From Allacma fusca (lineage: Eukaryota; Arthropoda; Collembola; Symphypleona; Sminthuridae): 64,000 nt of DNA. Positions 13,204 through 61,960 of this stretch are shown here, in pieces. A program made the position numbers and the translations under genes. The stretch spans positions 31,793,067-31,857,066 of the forward strand of contig OX359245.1 in the NCBI GenBank assembly GCA_947179485.1, written 5' to 3'. Every line of letters begins with the position of its first letter. Within the stretch, counting starts at the first letter, position 1. The notes beneath the pieces are model-generated. The model ran no database searches. It saw only the letters and a list, made by a program, of their open reading frames with translations, and had not been told where the DNA came from.

Positions 13204-14659
13204 CAGGAAAAACTCGATATAACGGAATCCCAAGGGACCGGTAAAATTTGTCCGCTATACAAAATTTCCGTTGTATGCACATAACGGATTTTATCCGTTA
13301 TATAATTTCCGAAATGACAAACAAGGATGATTAGGAATATTGACTTAAATTCATCGAAATGCAACATGGAAACACCAGACTAATAATATAATAATTATTC
13401 AACTGTAGAAACATTGAGTTGATTAAATATAGAAGAGAATAAGAAATATAGAATACAATAATTTAATATTCATCGACACGCAAAAACTTAGTTATTTTTG
13501 CTGGGCTTTTATCGTTTAGGTCCATGTTTACGTGAATACTTAAACAATTTCTTCCAAATATCATTCACTCTGGTTGATGATAGAGCACGATCTTTGCATA
13601 AGTTGAGTTTGAGAGTTCCCACTTTTAATTTCAAATACAATACTTTTTCTCCTTTTAAACTCGGTTTGATTTTTCGGACATTTTAGAACTGTGAACAAAT
13701 TGCAAGACATAAATCCAAACTAATTAGATGAAACTCGCAAGTGTTCAAGAGTTCTTATTCATTCAACCAAAATGTATACATATGTAACGATTTGGTCTCA
13801 ATATGACCATTCATGCTACACATGATCGGCAAAATTTTTGAACTCGATCTCGCACTCAAGAGTGCTAGGAGTCTCTAAACGGAACTCAGAACTCACTCAG
13901 GAACTCCAATTCTGAGTCAACCAAGAGTTCGCACTCGCACTCATGAGTGACCATGCTGAAATCTTGAACTCAAACTCGAACTCAGGAACTCTCAGTAACA
14001 AATTAAAATTAGCGCCATTTCAAGGAATCCGCCAAAGAATAACGCTGAAGCCGTCCCCTGTACTGACGATAGCTCACATTTTTAGCGGAAACGAAATCAT
14101 CAAAACGCTAAATGCAGGCAAAATGTACTAAATTTGTAAGTGTTGATGGGACAACATGCATTCCTGTATGGAATATATGAGTTCCAAATACTGCCCTCAC
14201 ACTCTCGCTCAATGACTGTAATCTATTTTTATGGCACTCGGCCTCACAAACTGAGTTCTGGTCAGAATGCGGCGGGTCTCACAATTGGCACTCTAATTTT
14301 GAGTTCTGAGTGCGAGTTGAGTACGAGTTTTGCTCTCAAAACTCGTGAGTGCGCCGATCAGTGTGCTACATACATATATGAAACAAACGTTTGAATTGCC
14401 ATGGCTAACGATTACATGTTAAAGGGAACCAATAGACTATTTTGTAATAAATTTCCGCTTAAAATCCGTTATATGCATGCAAAATGTTTCCAAAGGGCTT
14501 CAAAAAGTGTCCGTAATAACTAATTTTCCGGTATACATATTTCCGTTGTATGCAATATTTTTAGCATTAGTTATATGGGAGCCTTGCCGGGACAAATAAA
14601 TCTGTCCGGTGTAACTAAATATCCGTTGTAGAGCCATCCGTTATATCGAGTTTTACCTG
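13204..14659. mobile_element. Pogo/Tigger-like non-autonomous element, TA target
   Basis: The termini are inverted repeats CAGGAAAAACTCGATATAAC and its partner beginning CAGGTAAAACTCGATATAAC, flanked by TA at 13202-13203 and 14660-14661. Both the CAGG start and the TA target fit the pogo/Tigger branch of Tc1/mariner. No transposase frame is visible. Extra copies of the CGTTATAT...CCGTTGTATGC words lie in the first and last 150-200 bp. The element contains a nested insertion (13821-14363). A smaller relative sits at 52904-53287. Confidence 0.82.
13821..14363. mobile_element. 543-bp hAT-like MITE nested in the Tigger-like element
   Basis: The ends pair as CA(C)TGATCGGC inverted repeats, one arm lacking a base. 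TGCTACA flanks both sides (13814-13820 and 14364-14370), a 7- to 8-bp target duplication. Both ends are filled with words of the type AACTCGCACTCATGAGTG. It is non-coding; open frames of 60-80 codons here follow the repeat words. Confidence 0.72.
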
Positions 14660-15727
14660 TACATTTAAATACGTTTAATTTTAGGAATGATTTTTATTAT
14701 GTATTCCTTTTTAAATGGGACTTGGCCTACACCAAATGTCTTTCTTTATTTTCAGTGTTAGCATTGTTGAGCTTTCCAATTATTGTTAACTCTAACTCTT
14801 TTCTGATCAATCCTATTTTGTATTATTACATTACCAAACCTTACCTCACCATCTTTGACTTTCCCAAGTAAAGTTCACTGAATTACATAATGGCTTATTG
14901 TTAATATTGAGTCCAGAATTCGGGGGATTGAATGTTTCTCAAGTGTTTGAAATGCTAAATTCAAAATCATTTGCCGCAAATTTCATGGGGGTTCATTTGG
15001 TTTTTACCTGTTCTTCCTAAACTGCGGCCTCAAAATAATTCCTTCCCAAATTGTGTGATTGCCTAATTTCAGCATACAATTTTTATTTATAACTGAACTA
15101 CTTTAAAAAAATTTATAAACTTTGCCATAAACGTTATTACAACCACAGCGTTCCGAAATATTTGTATGAACACCACGCGTCCATGAAAAAAATGTTTTGG
15201 CATCTTTCTCACTGTAGCTCTGGAATCAAACTTTCACAACCTTGGCCTCTGTAGTTACGAAATACCCACAATTTTCAACGTAAAGACCTGTTAGACAACT
15301 TTCTGGGAAGTAAATAACATTTCCTACACTATGGCCTCAAAAAATACTTGAGAAAACGTTTTGGATGGGGACAAAAATGTGTAATGTCTAGAAATATCAA
15401 GAAATCCTGACTATGCTTCATGTGATTGACTGCCGTGACCTCAATTCTTGACCCAGGTCAATGAAATGATTTTTTTTAAATCTAGAAAAGAATTTCCTTA
15501 AAAATCGGGGTACTGATAGATTTTGAGTAAAAGCTAATTAGTTTGAGATTGTTTACTAGCGTATGAATGAGCGTATAAATGTAGCTATACGTATGTTGTA
15601 TATGTATAGTGCTTCACAATTATACAACTATCTAAATAAGCCGTTAGGCATTTTTTGAACTACAGTATAGTCGGGTAGAAAATATACATAGAGAATTTCG
15701 TATTATGTACTTTCATGGCTTCAAAAC
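14660..15727. other. Spacer between receptor genes A and C, no gene seen
   Basis: AT-rich sequence without a recognisable coding region or repeat boundary. The last few hundred bases (from about 15450) resemble 33540-33770, the 3' flank of pseudogene D. Confidence 0.55.
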
Positions 15728-17533
15728 TCAGCGAATTGCAATTAGCAGAGAGGCCACGGATCTTACAACAAAATCTAAAAACATTGGCATTGACTCCCGC
15801 TCCATGGTATGAAAGGCGCCAGCTCTAATCCCAACCACAGCCAAGGACTCAACCTGTTTTTCAAAATGTTTCAGCTCATAAGAACCTAAATGTATCTTCG
15901 CATATCGTACCGATTCCCTCTTGATAGTTTGAAGTTTATCTGGTATGGAGAAGGCGTTCCCAAGAGACGTGTCGTAAAAGATGATAAGATACATTGCCAG
16001 GACCACCGAAAAAGCAGCCACTTCTTTTTGTTTGGAAAAGCTAGTGATGCCACTGTATCCACAAATGGTTGCAAAAGCCAAGCACACTATTTTAACCAAA
16101 TATGTTGTCCAAGAGTGACCATAGTTGAAGAGCCTCACTCGCAGTACTATTTTTCTGAAACGCAAGTAGCAAGCATTCAGATCGTAAACATCTCCACGAT
16201 TTCCTCTGTAATAATACAAGTATGGCTCCAATTATTTATATCCCCTTCATGTAGTAACTCCTGTCCTGCAACTTACTTACCTCAATTGAGTTATTTCGGA
16301 TCCCAAGGCTGCACACGTATTTTCAAAGAATACAAGCAGTTGTTCGCATATTACGGCAAAAATGCCGACGACTTGCTGCTGCAAAACAACTTCGTGCATC
16401 AAAAGAACAACGAAAGTCCCAGGGTTTTGAAGACAGCTTGGGAGCAACTGATAGATATGGACTTTGGTGCAAAACATTGCGGCCAAAGCAGTAAATGAAA
16501 TCCCGCTGGGTGGGATGAAATATGGAATGAGGATTGCAACATTTTTGCGGACCACGGAACTGGTGTTTTTGCCTGCAAAGTAAACAGTTATTTCTTAAAA
16601 AATCGACTTGCACACACCTGACGTTAAAACGCTTTTCCTGATACTACATATAGCTTATTGAAACGAACAGGCTTAAGAATAGAAGACACTTGATTCCCTA
16701 ATTTTCTAATAAATTTTCGGTCAACTTCAAAAATTAGCTTTATTATGGTCGAGGTCAAATTCTGTAAAAATTAGCAATGAAATTAATCAAATAAAGAATT
16801 TGCTTCGAAAGGTTTCAATTAATGTTTAATTTGAGAATTTAGCATGTTAGGAAGTCGTTTTTGCAAAAATTACACTTTGCGGGTCGAAAATTTTGCTTTT
16901 TTGGGGAGACTATTGCCACACTTCTGATAGTCTCATTATGAATCCAAACGGTTTTCAAAAACTTTCCCAATATTAGTTTCGTCAATTGAGTCCTGGCCTT
17001 AGGGGAAATCGTATAAAAACAAACATTTAAGAAAATCTGGATGGAAATTGACTACAAAACCTGGACAATGAAATACTTCCTAGCTCACTGGCTTTTGCGT
17101 TTGAAGTTTGTTGTAGATTTTTCTATGCATACAGTATGTATTACTTGCCTGTGGCCTGATAGCTGGAATCATTCTCAAATAAAGAATTAAATGTCACTGC
17201 GAAGAGTTCCGGTGTCTGGACAAAGAGAGAGAACGCACCCAGCAAAGTGATCACTAATGCCAGGCTGTTCATAACATGGAGAACCATATCGAGCTGAAAG
17301 GTTATTCCCGCTTTGGAGTGAAATATTGTTGAAAAGAGGTTGTAGTTGACAAGGCATGCTCTGAAGCAAATATAAAAGAAGAGGAGGTTCCAGATCTGTG
17401 CTCCTTTATCTTCCTTTTTCTTTATAACGGGCTCATGATTGCATTCGAATTTCACGTCAAATGGAATCAAATTCAATTTACAAAGAATGTCCACACATTT
17501 TATGTAAAGCTTCAGATCCCTTGAGGTTATCAT
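15728..17533 (-). CDS. Seven-TM chemoreceptor-like protein C, 3 exons, 381 aa
   Basis: Exons on the minus strand: 17533-17145, 16559-16281, 16205-15728. The splice sites are GT-AG and the three pieces sum to 382 codons including the stop. An in-frame TAG lies two codons before the ATG at 17533, so the start is firm. Seven hydrophobic stretches can be read, two in exon 1 (WNLLFFYICFRACLV; MNSLALVITLLGAFSLFV), two in exon 2 and three in exon 3 (LVKIVCLAFATICGY; VVLAMYLIIFY; FVVRSVASLLIAI). The topology suggests a receptor or channel of the gustatory/odorant type. The TYxxxxxQ signature is absent, so the family is uncertain: it may be a divergent, lineage-expanded chemoreceptor group. It is the tandem neighbour of receptor A, and the pair is duplicated as B plus D. 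Confidence 0.8.
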
Positions 17534-18944
17534 CCTCTAGAATTTCTATGGAGTCTTGTACATTCCAACATCCCTTGGGATATTTATTCTCAACATACAT
17601 AAATAAATATGGTTCTTACAAGTGGGGTCAGAAATATTTATGCACAATTCCGTTTATTACAGTGCAAATTTTTCTGATTAGAAGTGCACCTTTGGTGCTA
17701 GTCTTCAAAACCTACTTTTCCTTTTTGGAGGGCTGCTCATATATGTAAGGAGTGTATGTACTGTGTTGGAGAGAGTTTGAAGCGTGGTTGGTTATTTTGA
17801 AAATATTTAAGCCACAAGCAAAGTGTATAGAGTAAACGGGCAAGTGAAGCAATTACAAGCACAAACGCTTCGAAGAGTTCGATTTTATTGATTATATACC
17901 ATCGAAATTAAAATGTTTTGCTTAATATTTAATAATCTGGATAAGTAACTGACAACGGAAGTTATTACAGGTATCAATTGTTAAATGAAACAATTTAATT
18001 CCTTCAACGCGCATTAACTAATGGGAGTATAGGATTTAAGAATACGGAACCCTTCTCAAATCACTAGCTCAATAATCTAAGTAATCGGTAATTATGTGTT
18101 ATTATTATAACAATAATAATAATATACTCAACAAAACCTTTAAATACTGTGAAGGGCTAAGGCTGAATCCATGCAATAAATCATTATTACTATAGTTCTG
18201 ATTGATTATATTTTATTAATCGATTCGGTCCTCTACTACACTCTAGTACATACATTGAAGGTTATCACTTGGAGTTACAGCCACAGGTTCACAATCGTAG
18301 TTAATGGTGCTCAACAGGGTCAGCAAAGATTATAGGATAATGTTATTTAAAAAAGTTATTAACGGAAAATATGATTTACATATGGTTTTTGGTAAGAAAA
18401 CGCATCCATCGTTTTAATAAAATTAAACGAAAAAATCCGTGCACTGCACTGATTTGGGCAAACTTTGTTTGCATGTGCAGGAAAGTGAAACTTATATTTA
18501 AAGATTTTTAGTAGGGTAGGGAAATAGAGTTTGATTGTTATCTGTAAAGGACGCATGTCCATACGTCAATCCGTTGGAAAGGTATAGCAAATGCAAGATT
18601 TTTTGGTAATTGTATCCAAAAAATAATTTTCAGAGGTCAAACGGTTGACCCTGGGTCAGGGAAAATATCAAAAGGTACATCTAGAATGTATGTCCGATTT
18701 TTTGGGACAAGTCCCATGTCCGTATGTCATTCCGTTGTTGAGTTGTGCGACTCACAAGATTTTGTAGACGGACGGACGAATGGACGGTCTGACGGAACAG
18801 ACTCGTCTATAAGAAAGTTTCACTTTCTAAAAAGCGTTTTTACTACACGGAAACGAAATAAATACGGTTATTCTTGATATTTTAACATTAATGTCTACTT
18901 GTACTCCACCTACCAGCCATCAAATGAAATCTGTGTTCAATTTT
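17534..18944. other. 5' flank of gene C, no gene seen
   Basis: Up to about 17760 this aligns with 34560-34810 (5' flank of pseudogene D), giving the right edge of the duplication. Beyond it the sequence is AT-rich. A segment at about 18540-18800 repeats the motif CATGTCCGTATGTCATTCCG and GACGGACGGACG, probably a decayed repeat. Confidence 0.6.
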
Positions 18945-21215
18945 CAGGGTGCGTCAGCCCGCTAGTAAAATAGACTTTTCCGTACGTCCGTGTGTCCTTC
19001 CGCACGATATCTCAAAAACTACTGGACCGAATTCAAATTGTTTACTGACATTACTTGTGTCAAAAGTAAGCCTGAGTTCGTATTTGGCTGAAATCGACCT
19101 GATAGTTTTTGAGAAAAAAATGACTGTTATCTCTAGAATTAATTTTTAATTTAATTTTTAATTTAATTTAATTCTTTATTCAGGAATCTTTTCGGGCTGA
19201 GCCCATATCATCCGTACATTGCAAGTGTATTTGTGTTTGTAACAATCATATACCTTAATTTACTTAATCCAAGGAGGTGAGAGAGCAAGGTAACATAGAA
19301 GGAGAATATATCCCACGACGAACTGAAGGAGCACAAGCCTTGTGTTCAGAGCTGCGCTCAAGTTCAAGTAGACCATGAGTATTTCAAGTCATGGTCAAGT
19401 TCGGGTCATGGTCAAGTAAAATATAATGGATACTTGAACATTCAAGGCATGGTCAAGTTATTTATTCTACTTGACCCTGAGATTTGAAATCAAGTAGTTA
19501 TCATGGTCAAGACAAAAAATTCTACTTGAGAGTCAAGTCATGTTCATGGTCAAGTAAAAATGTATAAATCCTTGACCATAAACCATGAGTATTTCAAGTA
19601 CTTATTCAAGTAACGAAACGTTACGCATATCGAAGTTGTGGCACTATATATTTCAATAGGTTTTCTTTCATAATGTTATCGTTACTCCGAGACTCCGTAT
19701 CCATACATGTTCTTCTAAACTACATATTTTTGGGTTATGATTCAATATCTCTTGATATTGGAAAGCCACAGCTGTAATAGTGAACGAAAGAAAACGAATA
19801 TAAAAACTTTGGAGCAGCACCTATGAAAGCAACAGTGTTCAATGTTCGATTGTTGTATAAAATAAACGCGTTGTTAATCAATCAAGTTACTTAAATCCAA
19901 GTACTCTTTTCATTCTAAACAATTTAACATCTGTAAAACGTTAAACACTACCACATAAGCCAGTTTGTTTCATTAACAGGGTGGACGCTGAACTGTAGAT
20001 ATTTTCAGTGAAGCACAACCCAAACTTGAATGTTAGCGTAAGTAATTATTATTAACAGGAAAATTCAATGGGAAATGATTTACTTACTTCCAAAAGACTG
20101 TTTACCTTACAATTAGCAGAGACTATTCGTAGTTTCTCGTGATTGAAGGTTGGCTAAAACTAAAACACAAGACATTAAAATATCCAACTGAAGCAGCAAC
20201 TCAAAATTTACTTGGAGAAGCTTGACAATTGTGAATAATATTGTTATTTGCTAAGTTTTAACCATAAATGGTGTACTTGGTGTATTTTAAGTGTGAATAC
20301 TATTTTTCTATTTCTATTTTTTTAAAAACTTGACAGTTCAAGTCAAGTTCAAGTTCGGGTCATGGTCAAGTCATGGTCAAATCAAGAGTTGTCCCTGCTA
20401 TACTTGACCAGGTTCAAGTTACGCGGAAAGTACTTGAATACTTGACCCTGAATTTTCAAGTAATTGTCTGACCATGAACCGTCAAGTTCAAGACCGTCTG
20501 AAAAACCTACTTGACTGTCAGGGTCAAGTCAAGTTCAGGGTCAAGTTTGGGATTTACTTGACTTGAGCGCAGCTCTGCTTGTGTTTGCAGGTAAGCACAG
20601 GTCCAGTAGAGCCGAGGCAACCGTAATACCACTCACTCGGTTGAGTGAGCGTTAGTGCGCCCTGTATCCAGCCGCAACATCCCCCAGAACCCAACATCCA
20701 TCTCTCTCACTACTCACACCTCCGCAGCAGCAGGGGCACTGGGCTTTGCAGCCATTCCTCAACAATGGTAGTTGAGTACATTCAGTGCTGGACTACACCT
20801 GCTGCCCGGCATAGCTATAGATTGAGAATGAAATGTAAAGCTACAGATAGAGAGGGAAGATATGCAGACAAGGGAGGGGTCAAGGGCCGCCTCCAAACTT
20901 CATTTGCATACCGATAGTGTATAGGGAAAGATAGAAAGGACCTGAAATTATTTTGGGGTGAGCTAGAGTCGAAAGCCGGCTCTTCTGCAGCCTTACAGAT
21001 TCGCTACACCACCAGACCGCAGGCTCGGTAGTTATCTCTAGAATTACTGAATCGACTTCAATCCAATTTTTTGTGAATATTGCTTATGTAAATCTTAATG
21101 GTTATTGCTTATGTGGTTGAAATCGGCCCGATAGTTTTTTTCAAAACAAATCTGAAATTTTGAAAAAAAAACTCAAAATTCGTCCTACTTTGACGGCGGT
21201 AGCTGACGCCACCCT
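18945..21215. mobile_element. Possible decayed composite element around a hAT insertion
   Basis: CAGGGTGCGTCAGC near 18946 and AGCTGACGCCACCCTA near 21198 form an imperfect inverted pair. Inside, (AATTT)n-like sequence with TTCTTTATTCAGG at about 19140-19190 looks like the reversed tail of a non-LTR retroelement, and about 20590-21040 is a GC-richer segment of unknown origin. No intact frame. No target duplication could be recognised, so the boundaries are tentative. The clean element at 19347-20577 lies inside. Confidence 0.4.
19347..20577. mobile_element. 1231-bp non-autonomous hAT element, CAAGTCATGG arrays
   Basis: Perfect terminal inverted repeat CAGAGCTGCGCTCAAGT at both ends and a perfect 8-bp target duplication CTTGTGTT (19339-19346 and 20578-20585). 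An 8-bp duplication with a CA(G/A)NG start is typical of the hAT superfamily. About 250 bp at each end are dense in CAAGTCATGGTCAAGT-like words; the middle is unique. No transposase. An inverted relative occupies 4905-6549. Confidence 0.92.
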
Positions 21216-22425: not shown

Positions 22426-22529
22426 GCTCGTCGGCTTTTTTGTCGTTCTCAAATATTCCATCAATGAAGTAAATGCTCACACAATCTGATTTAACTCCAA
22501 GAAACAGTGTGGTCCTGGTTTTACTAATT

Positions 22530-25500
22530 TTACTTATTCTGAATGCACAGCATTGAGTAAGTCAGGATATATTCTAGTATCTGCAAAAAATGGTAAAAAT
22601 AAGTTATAATATCTTTTATTGAAATAAATGTTGAAAAATCAATTACCATTCCGACACAGCCTGGTGTCAAGCTCATAAACATCCCCAAATTAGTTCCATG
22701 AATTCCAAAAGAAATATCATTCAGTATAACCCGGAGCTGAAATTCTGGCAACTCCAAAAGTAATTCTCCACTCAGAATTTTACGCATTTGTCGACACTAT
22801 AATTTAGGATAAAAATCGTCGGTTCTGATATTCCACCATGAAACGTTTTACTTTAAAGCGTATATTATATTACTAGGAAGTATAGATATAATCTAACAAT
22901 AAGTATAGTAAATGACTTGAAAATGCTTACCAGGACGCATGCTTTGGCTGACATCCTATAAAATACGATCATTTGAAGGACGAAAAATGACATTGCAGTT
23001 CGTGTGACTATATCCACATTCTGGCCAGTGAGTCCCATTGAATCTATCATTCCTCGCATGTGCAAGGAGGCCCAAGAGATGTTAATCAACACGAAGATGA
23101 AATTATAAACCATATTAAATTGGTTTTTCGAGTGCTGTAGTCGCTTGAAATCGTCGTACAGATTGTAAAACTACTCAAATGAAATTAAACATAAATATTT
23201 AATATCCTAGTACTAGTACAGAAAAAATATTTAGGAAAGTTTAAAACAGCCAAATGTTTTCACCTCTTTATGAGTCAGACTGGTAGTATGGGTTAAACAA
23301 GCCATAAATTCAGCTGTGTATAAATATCCAAAAACAGAAGATGCAAAGATGTTGGTCTCAAGAATGAAAATATATAACGTGTAATTGAGTTCAGTGATCA
23401 TTGCATAAACAGAGCAAGTCGTTACAAGAGGTGAATAATTATTAATCCATTCGGGATAACAGTACAGGGGAAGAAATTTCCTACTGTTTTCAAACGCCCC
23501 TACAAGGTTCAGAAATCGAGTTTGCATGATTGCGAAGAACCACCAGAGTATTGAATAGATCTCCACCAAAATAAACGCCACATAGCCCAAGAATATCTGG
23601 TAAGTTAAAAATATTAAATTACAGTTCAAAAATAGAGTATAAATTAGTATTTTAAACATACTATCCAGAACTAGTTGTAAAACCAGACAACTCTTACTAT
23701 ATTGGACGAATTTTTGGGAAGAAAAGCATTCCTACCATTGGAACAGTATATCGTCGGTGAAGAGGCAAAATGATCTAGGTGCATGATCGATTAGAATCAA
23801 AATGATCTACTTGCAGTTTCACTAAAGGCAAAATGATCTACTTGCATTGAATTTTAAAAGCAAAATGATCTAGATGCAGCTTTTCATAAAAGCAAAATGA
23901 TCTAGATACAAATTGTAATAAAACAATATAAGTAAACACATTCTAATGCCGGTGTACAAAAATGCGAGGGATTCAAAATCTTTTATATATGCATTTAATT
24001 CCCCAATGCCTCCATTTCTTTCTTTCAGTAACATTGAAAACAAAATGTTGTCAATTATGATTTAACATTTGAAAATGATTCCGAATGTTATGATAATGAT
24101 GATGATCGTAAAATACGATTTGAAAAAACTCCACGTTGAGAATTATTAAAGGGAAAACCAATTCAATGTGCACGCTAACACATGAGCTTACTGTGATTTT
24201 GATTCGTCTTTTAATTCGTTGATTTTAAAATAAATGAATGTTGCAGTTTTCGTAACTAAAAATGTATTAGATGCAATAAGTGAAATTAACTTTAGTTGCC
24301 GGAATGATCCTTAGTAATAGCAAACCCTTCAGAGAATATTAACCCACAACCCTAGGTCAATTACAGTCATGGTTAGCCCTTATAAGCCACGTGTCCTCCT
24401 TACAGATGCTATTTTTTACACAAAAAAAATAGACCAGCGCTTAGATCATTTTGCTTTTAAGAAAAATTGCATGTAGATCAGTGTTTAAAGAGGCTTGCAC
24501 CCAGTTAGAGCTACTTGTGGGAACGAAAAGTTTGATCCCATTCCCGAACCCGATCCCGAAAATCGGGTCATCAAGATTTTCGGACTCACACCCGAACCCG
24601 TTCCCGAAATACTGGGATCGGGTGCAGAAAAACCCAGATATTAAATATGGTTGAATCGTTGATCTCAAACCCGATCCCAAACCTGAAATCAGATACAATT
24701 TGCTCCCAATCCCGATCCCGAATCCCTGGAACCCGGACACGTTCCCGGGACCAGTGCCGTTAGTGTAAATCAATTTTTTCTTCACATTTTTATTGATTTA
24801 GCAATACCTATGCATGCGTACCATGCAACAATAGATTTAGGCATTATTGAAAATGGTCATCAAACTAAACGTCTTTTCAGCGTTGCCGAAAAAGCTGCAG
24901 GAAGACTGCTTAAACGATTCCCACTATGAGTTTTACAATGACTTTCATCTTGCAAGTTAGAGTAGGCGGAAATCACTACTGTGCGATACCAACTGACAAT
25001 GTGCGAAACGGCTCGGCTGAGTTCTACTTCCCCGGCCACAAAATTACCTTCCACCGTCCACCAGGATTTCCACCTTCCACTAGACCTTCCACTTGACATT
25101 CCACTTGACATTCCGCCAAAATTTTACAGATTTTTTACCTTCCTGATCTTTGCCTGTGTTAATTAATATAACCCTCTGTGTTCTGGGGAGTGAAACACAA
25201 AGTGCGAACTGGAGATAGTTAATGCGTTGCCCCCTGAATGCGAGTATTCAAACCGTAAATCCGCGTTTTAATTTATTAGGTAAAGTAAGGTGCAGTGCTA
25301 AGTTTTTGTCTTACCATTAATCGTTAGTTGTTACGGAATTTGCTAAAAACGTTTAAAAAATTTTGTTCAAAATCAGTTCATCGGTAAGTATGGCAACTGA
25401 TTGTGAGCTCTTTCGAATCACGTGGTTTTCCAGTGGTTGATTTTTATCAGTCCTTTGACATAATTCTACACAACGCCATCGAAATCTGACTATCATAATT

Positions 25501-27795
25501 GTGCATATCATGATTTTGTAACAGTAACCTGTTTCCTCAAAGGTACCCTGCAATTTTATAGTGAATTACACGAGTTAGTTTTAACTTAAAACAATCAAGT
25601 GTTTTAACCTCCGTGTTAATTTTAGGAATAAAAAATGCGAAACATAAGTTAACACACCGAAATTAATCCAAGACTGTCATTTTCGGATGAAAATCAGGCA
25701 CTATCTTCGGCCATGCAGTAACTCGTGTAGGAAGGCAATACAGTAGGTGGAAGGTCAGGTGGAATGATCAAGGCGAAGGTGGAAGGTTAGATGGAAAGTC
25801 TGGTGGAAGGTCAAGTGGAAGTTTGGTGGGAGGTGGAAGTCTGGTGGAAGTTACTTATGTATTATATTTTTAATATGCGGGTGAGTGGAAGGTGGAAGGT
25901 AATTTTGTGGCCGGGAAAGTAGAACTCAGCCAACGGCTCAAGTCGCTTACGTAAAATTATCATCTCAACACTTTATCGAGGGAAGCCGTGCATGCTTCGT
26001 ATTTTTTTCTCCGGTAGATGGATGCGTAGTTCCCGGGGACGTGAAGCGTGTAACGGGTGTAGGAACGAAGATGTTCTCGGTTCCCGACGGGAACACAAAT
26101 ACCTTCATCAAGCTTGAACCCGTTCCCAAACCCGGTCCCGATCCCGAAATCCCGGGTCTGCTGTTCATGTTCCTGAACCTGGTCCAAAAGTATTTGGGAA
26201 CATTAATTAGACACCCGAACTCGAACCCGTTCCCGATCCCGAACCCAATTCCCGGGTGTATCCCGATCCCAAAAGTAGCTCTACACCCAGTTCATTTTGC
26301 CTTTAGGGAAAAAGTTATGTAGATCATTTTGATTCTAATCGATTATGCACCTAGATCATTTTGCCTCCTCACCGACGATATCAACGTAGTAACTATATAT
26401 TACTGACAATTATAGGGAAGTAATGGTAGTAGATATATACAAGGTCTTTCTTTATATTTTTTGTTATCCAATGGGGAGTAGCTAAAAAAATTTTGATACC
26501 CAATTTGTAGTCAACGCTTTTCCAGATTTTTTAAAATTTATTTCCTTGATCTCGCTGAACGTTTCCGGGTACAGCGATAAAGGATGTGAACCAAAGTCTG
26601 AAATTTGTATGCGTTGGCATTAAACAGTTGTTCATTCAGGAATCTTAGAACAAACCTGAAAATTCCCTTTACTAATCCCACATGTCGCTACGTTGAGCAT
26701 TCTCGATCTGACGTGTTGAAGAGCAAGGCTGGGGAAATTCATCTTAAAAATCAAAGATTCAGAAACGAAAGTTTCTGATCTGAATAATTTTTCATGCACT
26801 TTGTGAAAAGTATTTTGGAACGCTGTGTTTGTAGCAATTTTAATGAGGATTCAATTTAGTCCAATGTCGGCTTCCCAAAATAAAAATTGCGCTCAGAAAT
26901 CAAATAGCTAAATAAGTAAATATTGAAACAATGATAAATTATCCTTTGAAAAATCAGTTCATAAACCTTTTCGGTTCGTCAGACATTTTAAGTTTCGTTT
27001 TTCTCACTTTAGCCGAGGAAGCGAAATTTCCGCAACCTTGTCCTCTATTCTCACTAACGTAGTTTATACCCACAGTTCCGAAGGTAAGGATCTGTTATAG
27101 ATAGCTCTTAAAAATTGTTTTATAAAAGCAGAAGAATTTCCTGATAGAATATGTACGTGTAATTAATAGCTAGAGTTATCGGTTTACCTGTACTGATTAT
27201 TACCATTGATTTATTTGACACACTTCTCTGGAAACATAAAGTCTCCTGCAACCGATGTCCATAATTTTCTAAAGCGTAGACGCGTCTCCAGTTAAAAAAC
27301 AATTGGGCACCATAACTCAGAGCAATTAGTAATTTTGTCCCTGTGTCCATATAAATTATAAAATTGGCGTCTGCAGTTCGTAAAGTATGGGCGACATCTA
27401 GGAATTCAATTCCAATCCGCCAGCATAAATTAAGTCGAAGGAGCTGGACCAGAATCTGTAATTGTTTGAGATAATTAACAGTAAATGTTTTAACACTTGA
27501 CGGATCTCATATTACATTTGCTGGGAATACTCAGAAGGATTTGTCATGGAGTAATCTAATCATGACTATTTTACGTCAATATGTTTCTTACCTTCTGAAT
27601 CCAATGACATGCTACAAAAGTGTATTTATTCAAATCAGAATTCCATACTAATTTAGAAGAGGAATAAAATAATACAGGTGTAAACTTTGTGTAGAGTGAC
27701 AATACCAATATGTAAGGATTGTCTCCAATGAATGAATTGAGTTTGCCGTTAATTTTTCGAATCATTTTATTTCGTTTAAGCATGGAAATAATCAT
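22530..27795 (-). CDS. Gustatory-receptor-like chemoreceptor B, 6 exons, 409 aa
   Basis: Exons on the minus strand: 27795-27592, 27455-27204, 23596-23264, 23170-22931, 22796-22647, 22580-22530 (stop 22532-22530). Each exon has exactly the same length and phase as in receptor A, and the protein is again 409 aa; exon 4 differs from A at roughly one residue in seven. The C-terminal TYxxxxxQ signature (TYSMLCIQ) is kept. No stops or frameshifts are visible, so the gene is probably functional. Intron 2 is 3.6 kb against about 1 kb in A because a nested set of three transposons (23751-26378) lies in it. That could affect splicing or expression, but the exon borders are intact. Confidence 0.85.
24506..26283. 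mobile_element. 1778-bp non-autonomous hAT element, CCCGATCCCG arrays
   Basis: Terminal inverted repeats TAGAGCTACTTGTGGGA and TAGAGCTACTTTTGGGA, with a perfect 8-bp target duplication CACCCAGT (24498-24505 and 26284-26291). About 220 bp near each end are GC-rich arrays of CCCGAACCCGATCCCG-like words, in sharp contrast to the AT-rich surroundings. It is nested in 23751-26378 and itself contains 25015-25931. Non-coding. Confidence 0.92.
25015..25931. mobile_element. 917-bp hAT-like element, GGTGGAAGGT arrays, third nesting level
   Basis: About 40-bp terminal inverted repeats starting GGCTGAGTTCTACTT, with a perfect 8-bp target duplication AACGGCTC (25007-25014 and 25932-25939). Both ends hold ACCTTCCACC / GGTGGAAGGT words, about ten on the right. 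No coding sequence. The GG start is unusual for hAT, but the 8-bp duplication fits. Confidence 0.88.
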
Positions 27796-28439: not shown

Positions 28440-29562
28440 CAGGGTTGCACAATTGAAAATGCCATGGCATTTTCGGCATTATGCCTGCCCAAAATGCCCT
28501 GGCATTTTGGGCATTTTCATTTCATGGCATTTTGGGCATCTATGGCACTTTGGGCATTTTGGGCATATTCAGCCTAGGGCAGGCGTTTTCGGCATATTCA
28601 CTCCAATTTTTTAAATATATGACTTTAGCTACCTGCTAATTTTGCAAAATAAGTCACAAAACAGTATGTTGAAAATAATTTTAATATTCAACTGGATTAC
28701 ATGATAAAATTATAGAAGCAAATTGTTACCAAAAAGGTTGAAACCTGGAATCAGTTGATATAGACATATTTATGGAAAAATAATAATAATTATTCTATTT
28801 TCCTTATTTTGTTGTAAAAATTCGCTTGTACACCGTGTCTGTAATTATGATTTAGATTTCAAGAACAAACATATTCGGGCAAAGATGCAACAAAAAGATA
28901 AAATAGTTGTTAAAAGATTAACAATATCATTGTTTGGGAGCTTCAAAACTCGTCGTCATCTAAATGTATTTATTGTTACATTATGAACTCCTAGAATTAT
29001 TACACTGGTTTTCTACGGCTGATTAAATGCAGTTTTCAAAGTCGACACAAAATTTGCCACGGAAGCTCCAAGTTTTGACATATATTATAACCGTCGCATT
29101 GTATCTAATGAAAGTGTAAAATTTTTTATACTTTACAAGCCATTATCAAAATACGGAATTTATGCTGGCACTGTGCAAATTGTTCTTTCCAAATCCAAAA
29201 GTTTTTTTAATGTACAGCGTTGAAGGTTTGCAACCCCGTTGGGGCTTATTAAAATAGCCATTAGGGAATTAGACGAATTAAATTCTTTTTTTTAAATCAA
29301 GTATAACATTTTCTAAAACTGGATGGGTTCGATTATACTACGAAAAACTCCCTTATATTCGCTAAACGATTTATACTGGTCATAGTGTATAAGTTTCTAT
29401 AAAAATGCCCAATATGCCCAAAATGCCTGCCGAAAATGCCCAAAATGCCGGGCATTTTCAGAGTAAGGCATTTTCAGGGCATTTTCGGCGTTTTGGGCAT
29501 TTTCAGGGCATTTTCAGGAGGGCAGGCATAAAACCGAGGGCATTTTCATTTGTGCAACCCTG
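28440..29562. mobile_element. 1123-bp non-autonomous hAT element, GGCATTTT arrays
   Basis: Terminal inverted repeats CAGGGTTGCACAA / TTGTGCAACCCTG, with a perfect 8-bp target duplication ATTAGGAC (28432-28439 and 29563-29570). Both ends carry dense AAAATGCC / GGCATTTTGGGC words. The middle is AT-rich and non-coding. The paralogous flank near 12640 is unoccupied. A fragment of a related element lies at about 5820-5930. Confidence 0.92.
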
Positions 29563-29570
29563 ATTAGGAC

Positions 29571-29939: not shown

Positions 29940-30675
29940 ACATACATGTCATTCCATTTTGCTCAATTTCGTCTTCCACTTTATTCTTCATCCGGAAACC
30001 AAGCGTGTACAGTTTCGGCTATATGCTTCGGGTCGTTGCCCTACTGAAAAATTAATCAACTGAAATTTTTTAATGTCTTCGCAGATTTCTTCTGATGATT
30101 CTCGAGGTTGTATCTCGAGATTATTCGCCTTGGTTTGAATGTTAGCAAGATTTCTTACGCTTTAGCAGTAACGCAGACCCATAACGTCATTGAAACTAAA
30201 AATAAGCATGTGTTAAATTAATGCGGATAAGGTGAAATTTGAGAGTTGCACTGGACAAGTAATCTCATCTGTGTTTCACTGTAGACGTGATGCACCCTGT
30301 CTTTAGTTCTTCTCCTGGGCGTCTCCAGTCTCCACACTCGCGGCTGTCCTTTGGTGCCAAAAATGCAGAATTTGAACTCATGGGACCAGAGGCATTTGAC
30401 CCAGTACATACATGGGGGCTACTCGCGAGTGACGAGTGCACTCAACACACTCCTACTCACACTCACAGGGGAGTAGCAAGGTAAAGAGTAGGAGTGAAGG
30501 CGCCAAAAACTTCGTGAGTTGGAGTGGTATAAGTCGAAGCATAGAAAAAGAGTAGGAGTAGGAGTAGCTTGCTTTGCTACTCACTATTTCTCTTACCATT
30601 GTATTAATCGCATAAAGCTAGCATTGCCACGCTAAAAGATTGGCGGATACTTCGAAATATTTCATAATTTTAAAC

Positions 30676-32260
30676 CACTGCTGCCCTAGTCTAGTCAGAC
30701 TTGACTAGGAAAGTCTAGACTTGACTAGACTAGGAGGCAAAAAGGAAGTAAAAGAATAGACTTGACTTGACTAGGCCTGCTGTTACTATTATGTGACTTG
30801 ACTAGAATAGACTAGGGCGACTCGCCAAAACACAGGACTTGACTAGACTTGACTTGCATGACTTCATGGAAATGCTAGTCAAGTCACAATTACTTGAGGC
30901 TCCCTTATGTAGCTGAAAATCAAAGCTAGAAAGCCACCGTGAAATTCCAGTGTACACGAAATGATCATCGTAAGTACCGTTTGGTATGATTAAGTATATG
31001 GCTTCGTTTCGAAAGAACAAAGCAAAAAAATTTCTACTAGGTACGTAAAGTGTTTAGGAACATATTACAATTTATTCCTTAACAGTGCAATTTATCATAA
31101 CGATAGCTGGGATACATTTCCCAAATTACTTTCTATAGTTAAAAGAATTAATTTTTTGAAAAACATTTTTTTATTAATACTTTCAAATTGCAACTAAAAT
31201 GAAAATGACATACCTGGTACTTCTTTCTTTAAACCAAAACCCCACCCCAAACCAAAGAACCAATCTTTCTAACGTGCCCTTTAACATTGTTTTTTCTTAT
31301 CATTACATTAGAAGAGATCATTCTTCCCAGGGCAAACATTATTCTGGCAGGGAAAATCACCAAGGAAAGGGATTCCTTTTTGAGGACAAGGATAGTCAAA
31401 TTTGTTGGCCTTTGAAATGAAAATCCCTTGACAGGGATTTTCAATTTTTTGGCGTGTTTCAGGAAAATTAGGCTAGGCAACAGGAATTTTTAGATTGTTT
31501 GACTTTATTTGACAGGAATATAACGTCTTCTATGGACATTTTTGTTGTCAACAGGTATTTTGAAAATCGCTGACCTTTGTTTCAGCAGGATATTCAGAAA
31601 TGTTCTTCCAGGGAAATTTAAAAAAATTCGACACCTGGGCACAGCCTACTTCAAATTGCACTACTTGCACCGGGTATTTCCCCTGGTGCGTCCCAGTGAA
31701 AATTTCGTATAATATACCAGAAAATATCCCACTAATAAATCCGTATATATTAGATAAAAACGTTTACCCATAAATTGTTATAAAGCCCTATTTTCTTGGA
31801 AAAATTTGATTCCGAACTTGCGATTAAAGTTGCAAAAACTAACCAATTTATTAAATTGACAATTGTTGATAGTGCAAAAATCTTACCGAGCATTATTTTT
31901 GATTGATGTAAACTACACGGTGTTTCACATCCTTACATCGTTTGATGCAAATAAAACGAACTGGTTTTTTGATAGAGGTACTTGCTAAAATCTGAAAATT
32001 TTGAACTGTACGATGCTCAAATTTAGAAAAATAATATTTTTCATATTTTGTTAATCAAAATGAAGGAATTTTTAGAAAAATACACTGACTAGGGGAATTG
32101 ACTAGACTTGACTAGAGAATCAGCTGCAGAATCAAGACTAGGACTAGACTTGACTATTGCTAATTAAACGTACAGCTGACTTGACTAGACTTGACTAGTT
32201 GCGGCTCTAAACTTTAAAGACTAGACTAGACTTGACTAGGTAGGTTGGCGGGCAGCACTG
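30676..32260. mobile_element. 1585-bp non-autonomous hAT element, GACTTGACTAG arrays
   Basis: Terminal inverted repeats CACTGCTGCCC / GGGCAGCACTG (one mismatch) and a perfect 8-bp target duplication TTTTAAAC (30668-30675 and 32261-32268). Both ends are arrays of TAGACTTGACTAG (about 30690-30860 and 32085-32240). The middle (30900-32080) is AT-rich and non-coding. It is nested in 30405-33226. Confidence 0.92.
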
Positions 32261-32479
32261 TTTTAAACAAACAATCGTGTGCAATGCCGACTTATGTACA
32301 AGCCATGCATTGGAAGACAAAATATGTCACAGATTAGAAATAAATCTTGAGCATACTTCCAGGCGTTGTTATTATTAATAGTCATTTATTGTAAACTTCG
32401 TCGGTATTTGTCATTGAATTTTGACTATAAAATTAAATTGAACTATTTTGTGCTTAGTATTCGCTTTCATAATTATAAG

Positions 32480-33018
32480 GAAAATTTTACTTCATTCGAC
32501 TCGTCCCTCATAATTATATATTGTATGCATTCTTGCATGCGCCAAAGACACACTTGTTTAAAGCAATGAAGCGAAATGATTCGCGGGAATCTCGTCGCTC
32601 AACAACCGTTAATGACTCCGTTTATTCTGCTCACAGTTTTAGACACGCATCTACATCTGCGGCAGCTCGAAGGGGCACAAGCATAGATCAAATTCGAATG
32701 AAGTAAAATTATACGATTAAACGAACTTACCTGAAGTTCGATCGTAATTTTACGAATGAAGACTCGTCCTGAATAATTACTCCCACCCAATAATTTGTCC
32801 CCACCCAAGTGACAAAATTCAGCTTTAAAATAATGACGGTTGTTGAGCGACACGGTTAAAGCAGAGATTCCCGCGAATCATTTCGCTTCATTGCTTTAAA
32901 CAAGTGTGTCTTTGGCGCATGCAAGAATGCATACAATATATAATTATTCAGGACGAGTCTTCATTCGTAAAATTACGATCGAACTTCAGGTAAGTTCGTT
33001 TAATCGTATAATTATTTT
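32480..33018. repeat. Imperfect palindrome with a third copy of one arm segment in the loop
   Basis: Segment X (32510-32612) recurs inverted at 32836-32946. Segment Y (32706-32780) recurs inverted at 32938-33018, and a degraded direct Y precedes X at about 32481-32510. This gives Y-X ... Y ... X'-Y' with prime for inverted, i.e. a palindrome with an extra Y in the loop. The X copies are nearly identical apart from an extra 12-14 bp in the right copy. Apparent open frames here are by-products. Confidence 0.75.
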
Positions 33019-33769
33019 TGTCTTAATATTTGCAAATATTTCGGTGAAAACATTGAGTAACTCACGAGTGGTGAGTAGGAGTTGTGAGATTTGAAGTTAG
33101 CGCTGAGAGTAGGAGTAGGAGTTTTACATTCTCAGTAACACTACGAGTGGGCAAGAGTAGGAGTGGTGGATTTTTTCTCTATGGGAGTGCGAGTGTGAGT
33201 GCGAGTGGGGAAAAAACCTACATCTATGACCCAGTAGTAATCTCCACATCATGAGTGATTTCTTGGCCAATCCCTTTTTTATAAACATTCGTTTTGTTGA
33301 GTTAAGATTCTTTTGGGATTTTCTTCCGCTGTGACAGACTTCTTTTAGTCTTCGATTTACAGTATTGATTTATTATTTGGCGGTCAATTAAATTTCAAAT
33401 TAAATTAAATCCTTGCATACCCAATCTCAGAGCCCATGCCCACTTTCGGAAAAAATTGCCTACCCATATACGTGCCCAATCTCGGAGTACGTGCCCTTTT
33501 TCGAAAAAATTTGGTTCATGCCCACTGTGGAACTTTTTTCACCCCCTGCTACACCCTGGTCATTAAAATGAATTTTTAGCTTTCTAGAAAAGGATTTGCT
33601 TGAAAATGGTGTAATCGTATATTTTGTGTAATATTCAATTAGTTTGAGACTTTTTGCTACCGTACGAAATACGTTCAAATGTACCAAGGGCATCACAATC
33701 CTCCAGTCTAAATAAGATATTAGATATCTTTTTTAACTGTAGTGTGGTGGGGTTTAAGCAGTGAATTAA

Positions 33770-58236: not shown

Positions 58237-58330
58237 GCTTGAAGTTCTGCTACAAATTAAAGTGACATTGTATATTTGATTAATTGTCTGTGAAACAAGT
58301 AATTTATAATTTTTTAGGAAATTAATTTAC

Positions 58331-58617
58331 AGTAAAGGATGAATGCGGTTTAAGGGGAATTTTTGTGAAATCTCTACTTCTTTATCCTTCAGCGTCAATT
58401 CTTCCACTTCTTCGTTCTTCACTTGTTCCTCTTCGGAGGTCGGGTCGGATTCTGTCTGTGTCCCGGAAAAAAATACAAAATGCAACTTTCCCGCGCGAAG
58501 CCCAACTCTGCTTTTAGACGTTCCATTAAATTCTTGATTTACTTGCTCCAGTGCAGAGATGCGAACCACATTTTCGTTACGTAACGTTACACTTAATATA
58601 GGCTTTGAAATTGACAT
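58331..58617 (-). CDS. Possible N-terminal exon of INTS8, or a separate short frame
   Basis: An open frame starting MSISKPILSVTL and running 95 codons into a GT donor at 58330, rich in Glu near its end (TSEEEQVKNEEVEEL). Spliced to the acceptor before 58249 it reads in frame into the INTS8 start region. It does not resemble the known INTS8 N-terminus, so translation may instead begin at 58236, with this exon belonging to another transcript. Confidence 0.45.
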
Positions 58618-59124
58618 TAATTATCACTACGTTACTAAATATTGCAGTACAAATTCAGCGTTACCATTCCGTTACTACAAAACTGCGCTAATACCAATAA
58701 CGCGTTTCCAATAAAAAATATAATATAACCGTTACTTTCCGTTATGGTTATAAAATCGCAACTAAAATGTCAAATAACCGGTGTCGCTGGGCGGAATTAC
58801 TATCGCGAAATGGTCATTAGAGTTTAGCGTGCCCCATGTGGTTTGACTAAGATACCAAACTGTCAGGAAACTCAATAATTAAGCAAATATCAAATGGAAA
58901 AATAAGACTAAATTGACAACTATTCGCCTGTAAGCATTTCTAAATTAAGTGGAGTTTTTGTAGTAATGCAAGAAAGGTAAATCTTTAGAAATTATAAAAA
59001 CGTATGACTTCTACTTATTTTGTTATATTTTGGACTTGATTAGGATTTGCATAAAAATTATCATCTATACTAATTAAATTGCTATCATTAGAATTAAAAA
59101 TCCGGATTTCTTGACATGATAATG
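58618..59124. other. Upstream of INTS8, no gene seen
   Basis: AT-rich, with several GTTAC/GTAAC words near 58560-58740 (for example CCGTTACTACAAAAC), perhaps a decayed repeat. The INTS8 promoter must lie here or just beyond. Confidence 0.45.
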
Positions 59125-60667
59125 CAAAGCTGGGCGAATACCCTACATGTATGCCTACAAGTAGGCAAAATTGTAGGCTATGCTCAAATTTTCACATATT
59201 TTGTAGGTATTTGTATGTATAGGCTGCTTATTTTGAGGGAAACATATATGCAATATATGTATGCTGGGAATAATCAGCACGTACCTACATAAAAAAGGTA
59301 GGTACTCAAGCATGAAAATGTAGGTATGTATGTTCGAATCTTTCGTATTCCAAAGCGCTGAATAAAAGACCCATCTAGATTTTCTTTCACGTGTTTTTTT
59401 TACTTTTGTTTACCTGCTGGAGTGCAAACGATTTCAATTCGTTTGCAGTAAGTTTATCCCCTTCCAAATAATGTGCAAAGTGAAAAGTAGATTCGACATG
59501 AGAATCAGTCAATAAATTTATTGTCTAAAATGTCCGTAAATACAGTCTTCGAAATAAGAGCAAAATAAATTTATTTTTATTAAGTAGCGCACAAAACCTT
59601 GTTGAAACAATATCTGAAACTTTTCGAAGGTAAATTTAAAAAATGTGACTTGAACGAGCATTTTCATTGCCAACTATGTATGTATTGTTTAGTTTTGAAT
59701 TAAGAGGATTGGGTAGTTACGCAGAGAATAAACAAGCGAAAAGCAGTATGACAAAGGAGGTAGTTTTAATTGGTGTCACAGAGAATAGAACCACAGTGGG
59801 TAAGTTCCGTGGAGGATTTTTTTCGCTAGACCAAACACCCGTTGAGAAATCGGTGAAATTCGGTTTTTTTGGTTAAGCCGGAATTTCTCAGTAACCACTT
59901 GTCAGATTTTCACGATGTTTCGTGCCATGTGTAGAGAATGAAGTGCTCTAGTGCAGCATTGCAGCTTTTTTGAAAATTTGGCCAAAATCAGAAAAAAATA
60001 GTATTTTTCAGCGTTTTTTACCTCAAAGGTGCAATAACAGGGCGAAATATTAGACGATAAATACACATGTTTTCTGATTTTGGTCAAATTTTTAAAAATG
60101 CTGCACTCGAGCACTCCATTCTCTACAAATGACACGAAACATCGCGAAAATCGGACAAGTGGTTACTGAGAAATTCCGGCTTAACCAAAAAAACCGAATT
60201 TCACCGATTTCTCAACGGGTGTTTGGTCTAGCGAAAAAATCCTCCACGGAACTTACCCACTGTGGTTCTATTCTCTATGACACCAATTAAAACTACCTCC
60301 TTTGTCATACTGCGTTTTGCTTGTCTATTCTCCGCGTAACTACCTATTGTAAATAACTTCAATTATTGCATGCGTAATTTCATTTTAGTTTTGCAGGTAT
60401 GGTTCAATAACGACAAAGAGGTATGTTGGTTGTAGGTAAGGACTAATCTCGGGAGTGATGTATGTAGGTTGTAGGTAGCGAAAAATCTAGGGAGTGATGT
60501 ATGTATGTAGGTTATAGGTAGGGTTAACTCTCGGGAGGGATGTATGTAGGTTGTAGGTAGGGTCAAGTCTCGGGAGTGATTTATGTAGGCTAAAATGTAC
60601 ATAGGTTGTACATAAGAATATAAAAATATGTAGGTTTTAAGGCATGCGAATACTTTGCCCAGCTTTG
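59125..60667. mobile_element. 1543-bp non-autonomous hAT element, TGTAGGTTGTAGG arrays
   Basis: Terminal inverted repeats CAAAGCTGGGC and a perfect 8-bp target duplication TGATAATG (59117-59124 and 60668-60675). Words of the GTATGTAGGTTGTAGGTA type fill the right end (60415-60640) and, more degraded, the left (59150-59340). It contains a nested 633-bp palindrome. Non-coding. Confidence 0.92.
59712..60344. mobile_element. 633-bp foldback palindrome (long-TIR MITE)
   Basis: Two arms of about 280 bp (59712-59995 and 60070-60344) are inverted copies with only scattered mismatches, around a loop of about 75 bp. The ends read GGTAGTTACGC. ATTG occurs at the left flank and TATTG at the right, but no clean target duplication can be fixed. 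A transcript would fold into a long hairpin. Confidence 0.88.
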
Positions 60668-60675
60668 TGATAATG

Positions 60676-61011
60676 AGTCTGGTTTAGATTCGAAACGCTT
60701 GACTCACGTCACATTCAAAATACATAGGAAGGTTCACGTTTGGTTTTATTAACATTTAGAGTTTAAAAACAATAACATGAGTAACATTGCTTGTCATTTT
60801 AAAAGTTTTAGCCTCTAGCGCACATAGTCCGGAATAGTGGCCTTCCTTTACAAAAATCCTGCGCCTGAACCTGTTCCTGGATCCATATAACGGGTACTTT
60901 AAAATTGTTTACCTTTACATGAACCTTTACCGGGACTCAGAATTGGTTGTAACTAATATTCCACACTGTAAGAAAATTAATCGTTGCAAATTTCATGATA
61001 ATCCCGGATAC
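60676..61011. other. Spacer with a fragment of the GTACC-type repeat
   Basis: About 60860-60935 (CCTGAACCTGTTCCTGGATC, CCTTTACATGAACC) resembles the arrays in the next element, probably a fragment of a related copy. Otherwise AT-rich with no gene. Confidence 0.5.
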
Positions 61012-61960
61012 CAGTGTATCGCATGGGTACAAAAATACTGTACCTGGACCTAAACCTGGACCCAAATAGTGGGTACCGGCAAAAATCGTACCCAAACCCG
61101 TACCTGAATAAAAGTACCCATTAAATAAATGTTGGTACCTGGACCTGATTATTTTGCAAGTAGTGTGTACCTGCACCTGAATTTTACCCGTACCCAAAAT
61201 ATACCCAATATATGAACCTGTACCTGAAACATTTTCCAACGTACCTGTACCCAATCAGGTACTTTAAAAAGAATTACTGTAAACGATTCAACATGATGAC
61301 ATTCATTGATTTACATCACAGCAGTTACAAGCTAGACGAAATTCTGCCTCGTCATAATTTTTGCAATACTAGACATCTTAATGGAGAATGGAGCTATAAC
61401 TTCTATAACATCTGAGGTATTGCCATGTCCAATTAAATCTTCCACTTCTAGGTCATCCTCCATAACCACAATATCATTTAACACCATTTTTACTGAATCA
61501 CACATGGAATTTGTAATTACACGAACTTATTGCTGGCACGTTGTGCTAAGTCAACCATCTCTATTGCATAAACGTATGCTTTTTCAAAAATTGCGATGAA
61601 ATCCTGAAAACACGCTGAATATCAAAACAAACCTGTAGGTCGGAGAGTGAGCCATATACTACACTAGATGCCTCGTAAGATGGATTTCTGTTTGTAAAAG
61701 TACCCATATTTGCAGGTATTAGTTTGTCAGGTCCAGGTATATTGAAAGCTTGTACCTGTTCCTGTCAGGTACAACCCAATAAATTCCAAGTTTGTACCTG
61801 TACCCAACACCTGGTTTTGTACCCAAATTTTGGGTACATGTAGCTAGTACCCATAAAGTACCCATTCAGTTTGAGTACTTATACAGAGTACCCATTTCGG
61901 ACCTGGACCTGTACCTGTACCCAAATACTCAGGTACTACCCGTACCCATGCGATGCACTA
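61012..61960. mobile_element. 949-bp non-autonomous hAT element, GTACCTGTACCC arrays
   Basis: Terminal inverted repeats CAGTGTATCGCATGGGTAC and TAGTGCATCGCATGGGTAC (two differences), flanked by CCGGATAC (61004-61011) and ACGGATAC (61961-61968), a 7-of-8 target duplication. Both ends consist of GTACCTGGACCTGTACCC-like words. Middle unique, non-coding. Confidence 0.85.

Follow-up and report, generated by a model that had tools for sequence, protein, structure and literature searches.

Why should so many repeat arrays, each built from a different short word, lie beside the ends of mobile elements within one small stretch of DNA? The question is raised by 64,000 nucleotides of contig OX359245.1 of the collembolan Allacma fusca (assembly GCA_947179485.1, positions 31,793,067 to 31,857,066; here referred to as the window), in which an initial annotation had described nine elements (E1 to E9), each with its own word array near the ends. 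The best explanation of these nine features is that they are short non-autonomous DNA transposons of A. fusca, most or all of them from separate hAT families. We consider it very probable that they are miniature inverted-repeat transposable elements (MITEs) of many hAT families and that their subterminal words are predicted transposase binding sites that have diverged together with the transposase.

Element boundaries, word arrays and copies

The initial annotation had called nine elements with paired termini and 7- to 8-bp target site duplications (TSDs), seven of them perfect. We scanned the window for an exact 8-bp TSD next to terminal inverted repeats (TIRs) matching at 10 or more of 11 positions, with an element length of 300 to 3,500 bp and with two 164-bp satellites masked. 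Seven matches were returned outside the satellites, and six of them had coordinates identical to those of listed elements: E2 (19347..20577), E3 (24506..26283), E4 (25015..25931, nested inside E3), E5 (28440..29562), E7 (30676..32260) and E8 (59125..60667); these and the further window features are given without strand unless one is stated. The seventh match was an inner fold-back (32518-32939). At the same TSD length of 8, the only one run on shuffles, no match was found in any of 20 Markov-shuffled windows. Other TSD lengths gave 59 (4 bp), 7 (5 bp), 13 (6 bp), 2 (7 bp) and 1 (9 bp) matches in the real window sequence and none at 10 to 12 bp. Among 12 listed matches at length 6, six lay inside the fold-back and five were known elements shifted by one base, and all seven matches at length 5 were other pairs and not listed elements. 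The ends of E6, read from its flanks, fell at 30407..33228 with the perfect TSD ACCCAGTA, two bases from the earlier coordinates, and E7 is nested inside it. The duplications of E1 (13821..14363; 7 bp) and E9 (61012..61960; CCGGATAC/ACGGATAC, matching at 7 of 8 positions) are both imperfect. The 8-bp TSD is thus perfect in seven of the nine window copies, six recovered de novo by the scan and the seventh at the corrected ends of E6, which agrees with the annotation.

Word arrays were assessed by counting the best 8-mer of each element, one mismatch being allowed, within terminal stretches of 300 bp or less. The best word was present in 12 to 24 copies in the ends, compared with 0.14 to 0.59 expected, where the expectations are not corrected for choosing the best word; a different word choice gave 11 copies in the ends of E6. 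The interiors of E2 to E9 held zero or one copy and each 500-bp flank zero to three. E1, too short to be split into ends and interior, carried 7 and 5 words in its 170- and 120-bp ends and 2 in the 253 bp between them; the best-word count of this element was 14 versus 0.33 expected. A 6-mer scan, which requires no preselected word, placed nearly all array peaks in the listed ends; the remaining peaks belonged to an inverted second E2-type copy, the 164-bp satellite, a tenth element at 23.7 kb, and positions at 42.7 and 58.5 kb. The word is therefore short, repeated in the outer 200 to 300 bp at both ends and rare inside, and its copies lie in mixed orientations. The annotation had put the word length at 8 to 18 bases; the arrays themselves stand, with shorter repeated cores of about 6 to 8 bases.

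All nine elements are multicopy in the 392.74-Mb assembly (91 contigs; the window corresponds to C1:31793067-31857066). For each copy search the best 40 candidates per element were scored. All 40 scored copies of E1 had the same ends, 38 of them beginning at query base 3 (end in other copies, CACTGATCGGC), and four of five other copies had a perfect TSD, one of these read by eye from the ends. E2 (word GGTCAAGT, TIR CAGAGCTGCGC, TSD CTTGTGTT) was full length in 30 of 40 scored copies, with a perfect TSD at exactly these ends in 10 of 10 other copies. Because 28 of the 30 full copies are 99 to 100% identical, some families, such as E2, appear to have moved recently. The left half of E3 (word CCCGAACC/CCCGATCC, TIR TAGAGCTACTT, TSD CACCCAGT) was matched by all 40 scored copies; the TSD was perfect in three of five other copies, and the right end was absent from the fetched stretch in the remaining two. 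For E4 (word CCTTCCAC, TSD AACGGCTC) the TSD was exact in three of five other copies, offset by a base in one and absent from one. E7 (word CTAGTCTA/GACTAGAC, TIR CASTGCTGCCC, TSD TTTTAAAC) was full length in 25 of 40 scored copies and had a perfect TSD in four of five others. The TSD of E8 (word ACCTACAT, TIR CAAAGCTGGGC, TSD TGATAATG) was perfect in four of five other copies, with one mismatch in the fifth. E9 (word CCTGTACC, TIR YAGTGYATCGC) reached both ends within one base in 37 of 40 scored copies and had a perfect TSD in five of five others. For E6 (word GAGTAG(GAG), ends CATA.ATG), 34 of 40 scored left-end copies started at 30407; its TSDs were examined for the window copy only. Fixed ends and mostly perfect 8-bp duplications were thus found in the other copies of the eight families checked, E6 excepted.

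E5 (word GGCATTTT, TIR CAGGGTTGCAC, TSD ATTAGGAC) was read at 30 loci, including the window copy. Two loci (L034 and L057) failed the end filter, and the other 28 had both ends and a TSD with at most one mismatch, 26 of them perfect and 25 distinct. E5 also has a paralogous empty site. The gene segments at 9.1 to 12.9 kb (9125-12867) and 22.4 to 29.8 kb (22440-29783) are paralogous; their receptor-like label is a reading of the frames, as the profile scan found no family match. The uninterrupted paralogue has a single target copy, ATTAGGAG (12643..12650, plus strand), compared with the E5 TSD ATTAGGAC in the second segment, and the simplest reading of this pair is that E5 would have entered the second gene copy after the duplication. 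A second duplicated gene pair, receptor-like by its frames (15451-17783 and 33553-34848), is usable for the same kind of empty-site comparison.

Superfamily assignment

The TIRs of hAT elements are short and of the type CAGNG(N)TG. By eye, this type fits E2, E5, E7 and E8 and loosely E1, E6 and E9, while E3 starts with TAGAGCTAC and E4 with GGCTGAG. The 8-bp TSD expected of hAT elements was found both in the window and in the other copies. No frame in the window matched PF05699, the hAT C-terminal dimerization domain, among 79 scanned of the 122 frames of at least 75 amino acids (aa). The annotation had assigned all nine elements to hAT. The duplications and the transposase matches for E1 and E7 (to a sister) sustain this in part; E8 is matched by its tip only, and the assignment of E4 is unproved.

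We consider it possible, although we lean against it, that another superfamily whose insertions also make 8-bp duplications accounts for some of the nine, most of all for E4. E4 starts with GGCTGAGTTC, a 47-bp TIR. The Hermes transposase has the target preference nTnnnnAn (PMC10368747, in the section drawn on here), and the T2 and A7 positions agree with it at 17 of 22 in E2, 10 of 10 in E7, 8 of 10 in E9 and 5 of 10 in E8, compared with 1 of 8 informative positions in E4; E5 prefers nnTATAnn. The tenth element, here called the GATCTA element (23752..26377, approximate ends by eye; TIR of about 60 bp; word ATGATCTA), has the same array style and a duplication that by eye is TA or ATAT and not 8 bp. 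The array habit is therefore not confined to elements with 8-bp duplications. On the other side, E4 does have 8-bp duplications and the same subterminal architecture, and no transposase partner was found that could decide its case. The GATCTA element hosts E3, so that nesting is three deep (E4 in E3 in the GATCTA element).

Words, transposases and array turnover

If the nine elements are MITEs of separate hAT families, each family would have a transposase-bearing form whose enzyme binds the short word repeated in the outer 200 to 300 bp of both ends. The MITEs would keep the family tips and words and so be moved by that family's enzyme. Several bound copies would concentrate the multimeric transposase locally and label the ends as belonging to it. 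Divergence of the transposase lineages would be accompanied by stepwise change in the words, and arrays would lengthen or shorten as word units are gained or lost. By analogy with known systems, the words may be bound by the N-terminal BED-type domain of the transposase, and this binding would give family specificity.

A genome-wide search gave 150 scored PF05699 matches among 860 candidates. Eight loci were examined for element boundaries, seven chosen for arrays already seen (L005, L008, L010, L011, L018, L023 and L024) and one for its long frame (L017). A perfect 8-bp TSD with TIRs matching at 10 or more of 11 positions enclosed the PF05699 match in five of the eight stretches (L008, L010, L018, L023 and L024). 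These five elements are 3,339 to 4,645 bp long and represent four families, L018 and L023 being one, and each has a word of its own at its two ends: CGAACTCA/TGAGTTCG in L018 and L023, a GAAGGAAGG-type word in L008, CGGATA in L024 (23 copies versus 0.43 expected) and a AAGGCAAGG-type word in L010. Frames of L018 and L008 match PF05699, and a 351-aa frame of L024 has a subthreshold match to the hAT RNase-H domain. The stretch examined for L005 held no perfect TSD with TIRs, and L017, which has the dimer domain and a nearby BED match, showed neither an array nor a perfect TSD with TIRs and was rejected as an array-bearing element. The L023 element has the duplication TTTGAGGC, and a dense CTCAAA satellite lies beyond its end (C8:35680209), into which it may possibly have inserted. 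Another locus, L061 (C5:29100861-29106861), has the dimer domain in a 566-aa open frame with a BED match upstream and no array or perfect TSD with TIRs, and is perhaps a domesticated gene.

Three window elements could be related to transposase loci. The partners of E1 (word CGAACTCA), by ends and word, are L016, L018 and L023. The end alignment of E1 with L016 scored 29.0 versus a maximum of 19.0 in 60 shuffles, the last 300 bp of L016 held five E1 words, a number reached in none of 300 shuffles, and in L018 and L023, which are complete elements, the best word was CGAACTCA or its complement. The perfect 12-base match of the E1 end to these three loci is not independent, since the query end was copied from these elements. 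E7 has a sister in L081, which carries GACTAG/GAATAG words (end alignment 47.0 versus a shuffle maximum of 19.5; eight words, reached in 0 of 300 shuffles). The E8 tip CAAAGCTGGGCAAA is identical at 14 of 14 positions to sequence 3′ of the L077 domain (alignment 33.5 versus 21.5 in shuffles); L077 has one E8 word, which 79 of 300 shuffles reach, and no array, so that it is a relative by tip only and was rejected as a partner in words. Other candidates failed. The ACTTGA words near L010 belong to an E2-like insertion outside the element, whose own word is AAGGCA, which removes L010 as a partner of E2. L011 to L013, compared with E9, showed only 59% likeness; their array stands on the 5′ side, and a perfect TSD with TIRs was not found. 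The annotation had named intact hAT transposase genes flanked by the same words as the support to seek; the ends and word of the E1 family, the E7 sister and the arrays at both ends answer to this in part.

Arrays lie 3′ of dimer domains more often than in the flanks of E5 copies. Of 30 dimer-domain loci, 23 had an array 3′ of the domain and 5 had one 5′ of it, compared with 19 of 60 E5-copy flanks of 1.48 kb (23/30 versus 19/60, Fisher P = 1 × 10−4, with loci within one family not independent). Of 72 BED matches, 25 shared a strand with one of the 150 scored dimer domains and lay at most 10 kb upstream of it, and none lay on the other side or strand; one partial BED match from the genome search falls inside the L024 bounds.

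We then compared words with transposase relatedness. A threshold of 85% dimer identity sorted 50 loci into 31 families, with L010 not used to represent its family, and an array was sought in the 700 bp that follow the domain on its 3′ side. Eighteen of the 31 sampled families had such an array. With arrays this frequent among the families and in 19 of 60 E5 flanks, the claim that their density in 64 kb is unusual was not upheld. The cosine between 5-mer spectra was 0.182 for 25 pairs with at least 50% dimer identity, compared with 0.048 for 128 pairs (permutation P = 5 × 10−5, 2 × 10−4 in a repeat, and 0.003 without pairs at or above 70%). A control stretch gave 0.135 versus 0.108 (P = 0.22). 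The result was robust to 4- and 6-mers, to identity cutoffs from 0.40 to 0.60 and to omission of the closest pairs (P from 1 × 10−4 to 0.015), and the rank correlation over all pairs was weaker (0.29, P = 0.011). Stepwise series of words can be read among related families, such as CGGATA (L024), TCGGAT (L084) and TCGGTT (L087), or TGAAGG (L007 and L008), GAAGGC (L025) and AAGGCA (L009). A divergence race between transposase and word had been proposed; codivergence is supported statistically, and a race is not distinguishable from slow joint drift.

The 28 E5 copies allowed the history of the arrays to be followed within one family. Substitution rates were 0.0146 in the left array, 0.0233 in the interior and 0.0040 in the right array, and singletons per kb-copy were 6.0, 3.4 to 4.0 and 2.8, respectively. 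Shared and singleton variants numbered 15:37 in the arrays versus 105:79 in the interior (P = 5 × 10−4; L042 was dropped from these variant tests as its TSD is the same as that of L041). This depletion of shared variants would follow if copies whose arrays are damaged left fewer descendants, but some singletons of the left array could stem from misalignment.

Several observations weigh against transposase-bound, codiverging words. No array was detectable within 700 bp in 13 of the 31 families, among them that of L077, the one locus that matched an E8 tip. Some close pairs have unlike words (L009/L015, 78% identity and cosine 0.00; L081/L085, 69% and 0.07; L014/L016, 64% and 0.03). The arrays of four related pairs (L007/L008, L008/L025, L024/L084 and L084/L087) still align in part, so that shared ancestry of the sequence itself explains some of the likeness between words. 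In the bounded transposase elements, the sense-strand frames that reach 90 aa are 94 to 351 aa long, and none was demonstrated to be an intact gene. Among the loci compared, no transposase partner was found for E2 to E6 or E9; L022 did not rise above shuffles for any of the nine, and neither did L014 for E6 (17.5), while the alignment of L014 with the E1 end (21.0 versus a shuffle maximum of 20.0) is too little to call. No BED match exceeded the cutoff in 20 frames from five transposase regions, where one was weak (E = 0.09). The helical spacing of words follows no common rule across families; those of E7 are spaced 10/31 bp, and other families differ. In E5, the left-array singletons exceed those of the interior, possibly through misalignment. 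When five further related copies were dropped, the contrast fell to 10:42 versus 69:114 (P = 0.013), significant for the right array alone (P = 0.021) and not for the left (P = 0.135).

An improbable alternative is that the arrays are passive satellites, in which slippage and gap repair after excision amplify tip-adjacent sequence to no function. Consistent with this, indels in the E5 arrays are the size of word units (7 to 35 bp) versus 1 to 10 bp, mostly 1 to 5 bp, in the interior; the second E2-type copy has a left array that aligns nearly without gaps and a right one enlarged by several word units; and several E4 copies have extra sequence in the right array. Against this, the same word stands at both ends and is rare inside (zero or one copy in E2 to E9, two in E1), words are alike between related transposase families where the control stretch is not, and the E5 arrays are poor in inherited variants. 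The interior and flank counts led us to reject satellites as the main explanation, and slippage may explain array growth without explaining retention. The initial annotation had named two outcomes that would speak against it, copies without fixed ends or 8-bp duplications and words forming satellites unlinked to the termini. The window and the copies with fixed ends that were read, on which the matter was judged without a genome-wide search for the words or for satellites, showed neither; in the window the words are confined to the ends and form no head-to-tail arrays independent of them. That the words serve host proteins or promoters and not the transposase is very improbable, since words that differ by family and track the transposase lineage would need a separate host protein per family, and the arrays lie at both ends and also in MITEs that have no transposase frame.

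Further features of the window and comparison with known systems

Three features are absent from the initial list: a second copy of E2 type, the GATCTA element in which E3 and its guest E4 lie, and a fragment of an element end at 58554. The E2-type copy (4897..6549, minus strand) is older, has lost one tip and is 85% identical to E2 in the outer 0.4 kb and 74% inside. Nested in it is a 0.42-kb element (5695-6115, TIR GGGAGCGTTCACAAATGACGTCA) that itself holds an E5-type end fragment (5809-5924). Arrays of the 164-bp satellite at 2365-3975 and 6687-8677, in opposite orientations, enclose the 2.7-kb region with this copy, and the two opposed arrays and the enclosed region form a large inverted structure. 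The end fragment CAGAGATGCG (58554..58860, plus strand) has GTTAC words and by eye resembles the 3′ end of transposase locus L022. Long fold-back palindromes lie in E6 (32498-33013) and in E8 (59711..60344), the latter a nested element absent from the other E8 copies listed. The window genes include an Argonaute-type gene with a Piwi match and a frame matching Integrator subunit 8.

Short subterminal repeats are bound by the transposases of Hermes, Ac and Herves, and the arrays described here are therefore most likely the same device, with one word per family. In the sections of the papers drawn on here, Ac/Ds of maize is similar in its 8-bp TSD, its 11-bp TIR and many AAACGG hexamers, bound by the Ac transposase, in the outer 200 bp; its short Ds1 elements share only the tips and a few hexamers (PMC3260210). 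Ac/Ds is, however, one family with one word, whereas many families with different words occur here in one genome. Hermes of Musca likewise sets a BED finger on short subterminal repeats, with 17 and 14 copies of AAG(T/C) in its two ends, of which about 220 bp each is needed (PMC10368747); it differs in its four-base motif, compared with 6 to 8 bases here, and BED domains were seen here for few families. Herves of Anopheles has an eight-base motif, CGATTCAT, at both ends that its transposase binds, and its authors state that the regions bound vary from one hAT to another, which ensures specificity (PMC3143072); it is, however, a single family and offers no series of related transposase-word pairs. 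Galileo, of the P superfamily, also has multiple transposase sites, in long TIRs (PMC3688188), but uses a THAP domain, whereas the transposase loci here were found by the hAT dimer domain.

Subterminal binding sites are a known hAT trait, and the new part is the many parallel transposase-word lineages in one genome. No paper on words of different families codiverging within one genome was found in a literature search that covered sources other than subscription papers and Repbase. The joint change of transposase and end sequences without loss of activity has usually been studied one family at a time, and parallel hAT families in one genome are a natural protein-word series for studying specificity, cross-mobilization and array turnover. 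The chances seem evenly balanced that the A. fusca genome contains a graded series of about 18 lineages of hAT transposase, that almost every one of them has a private word drifting stepwise with the protein and serving as an address by which families are kept from mobilizing each other, and that arrays turn over unit by unit. If so, the series would be dense enough to read how the DNA-binding domain of a transposase changes its specificity and would show how MITEs track or switch their masters.

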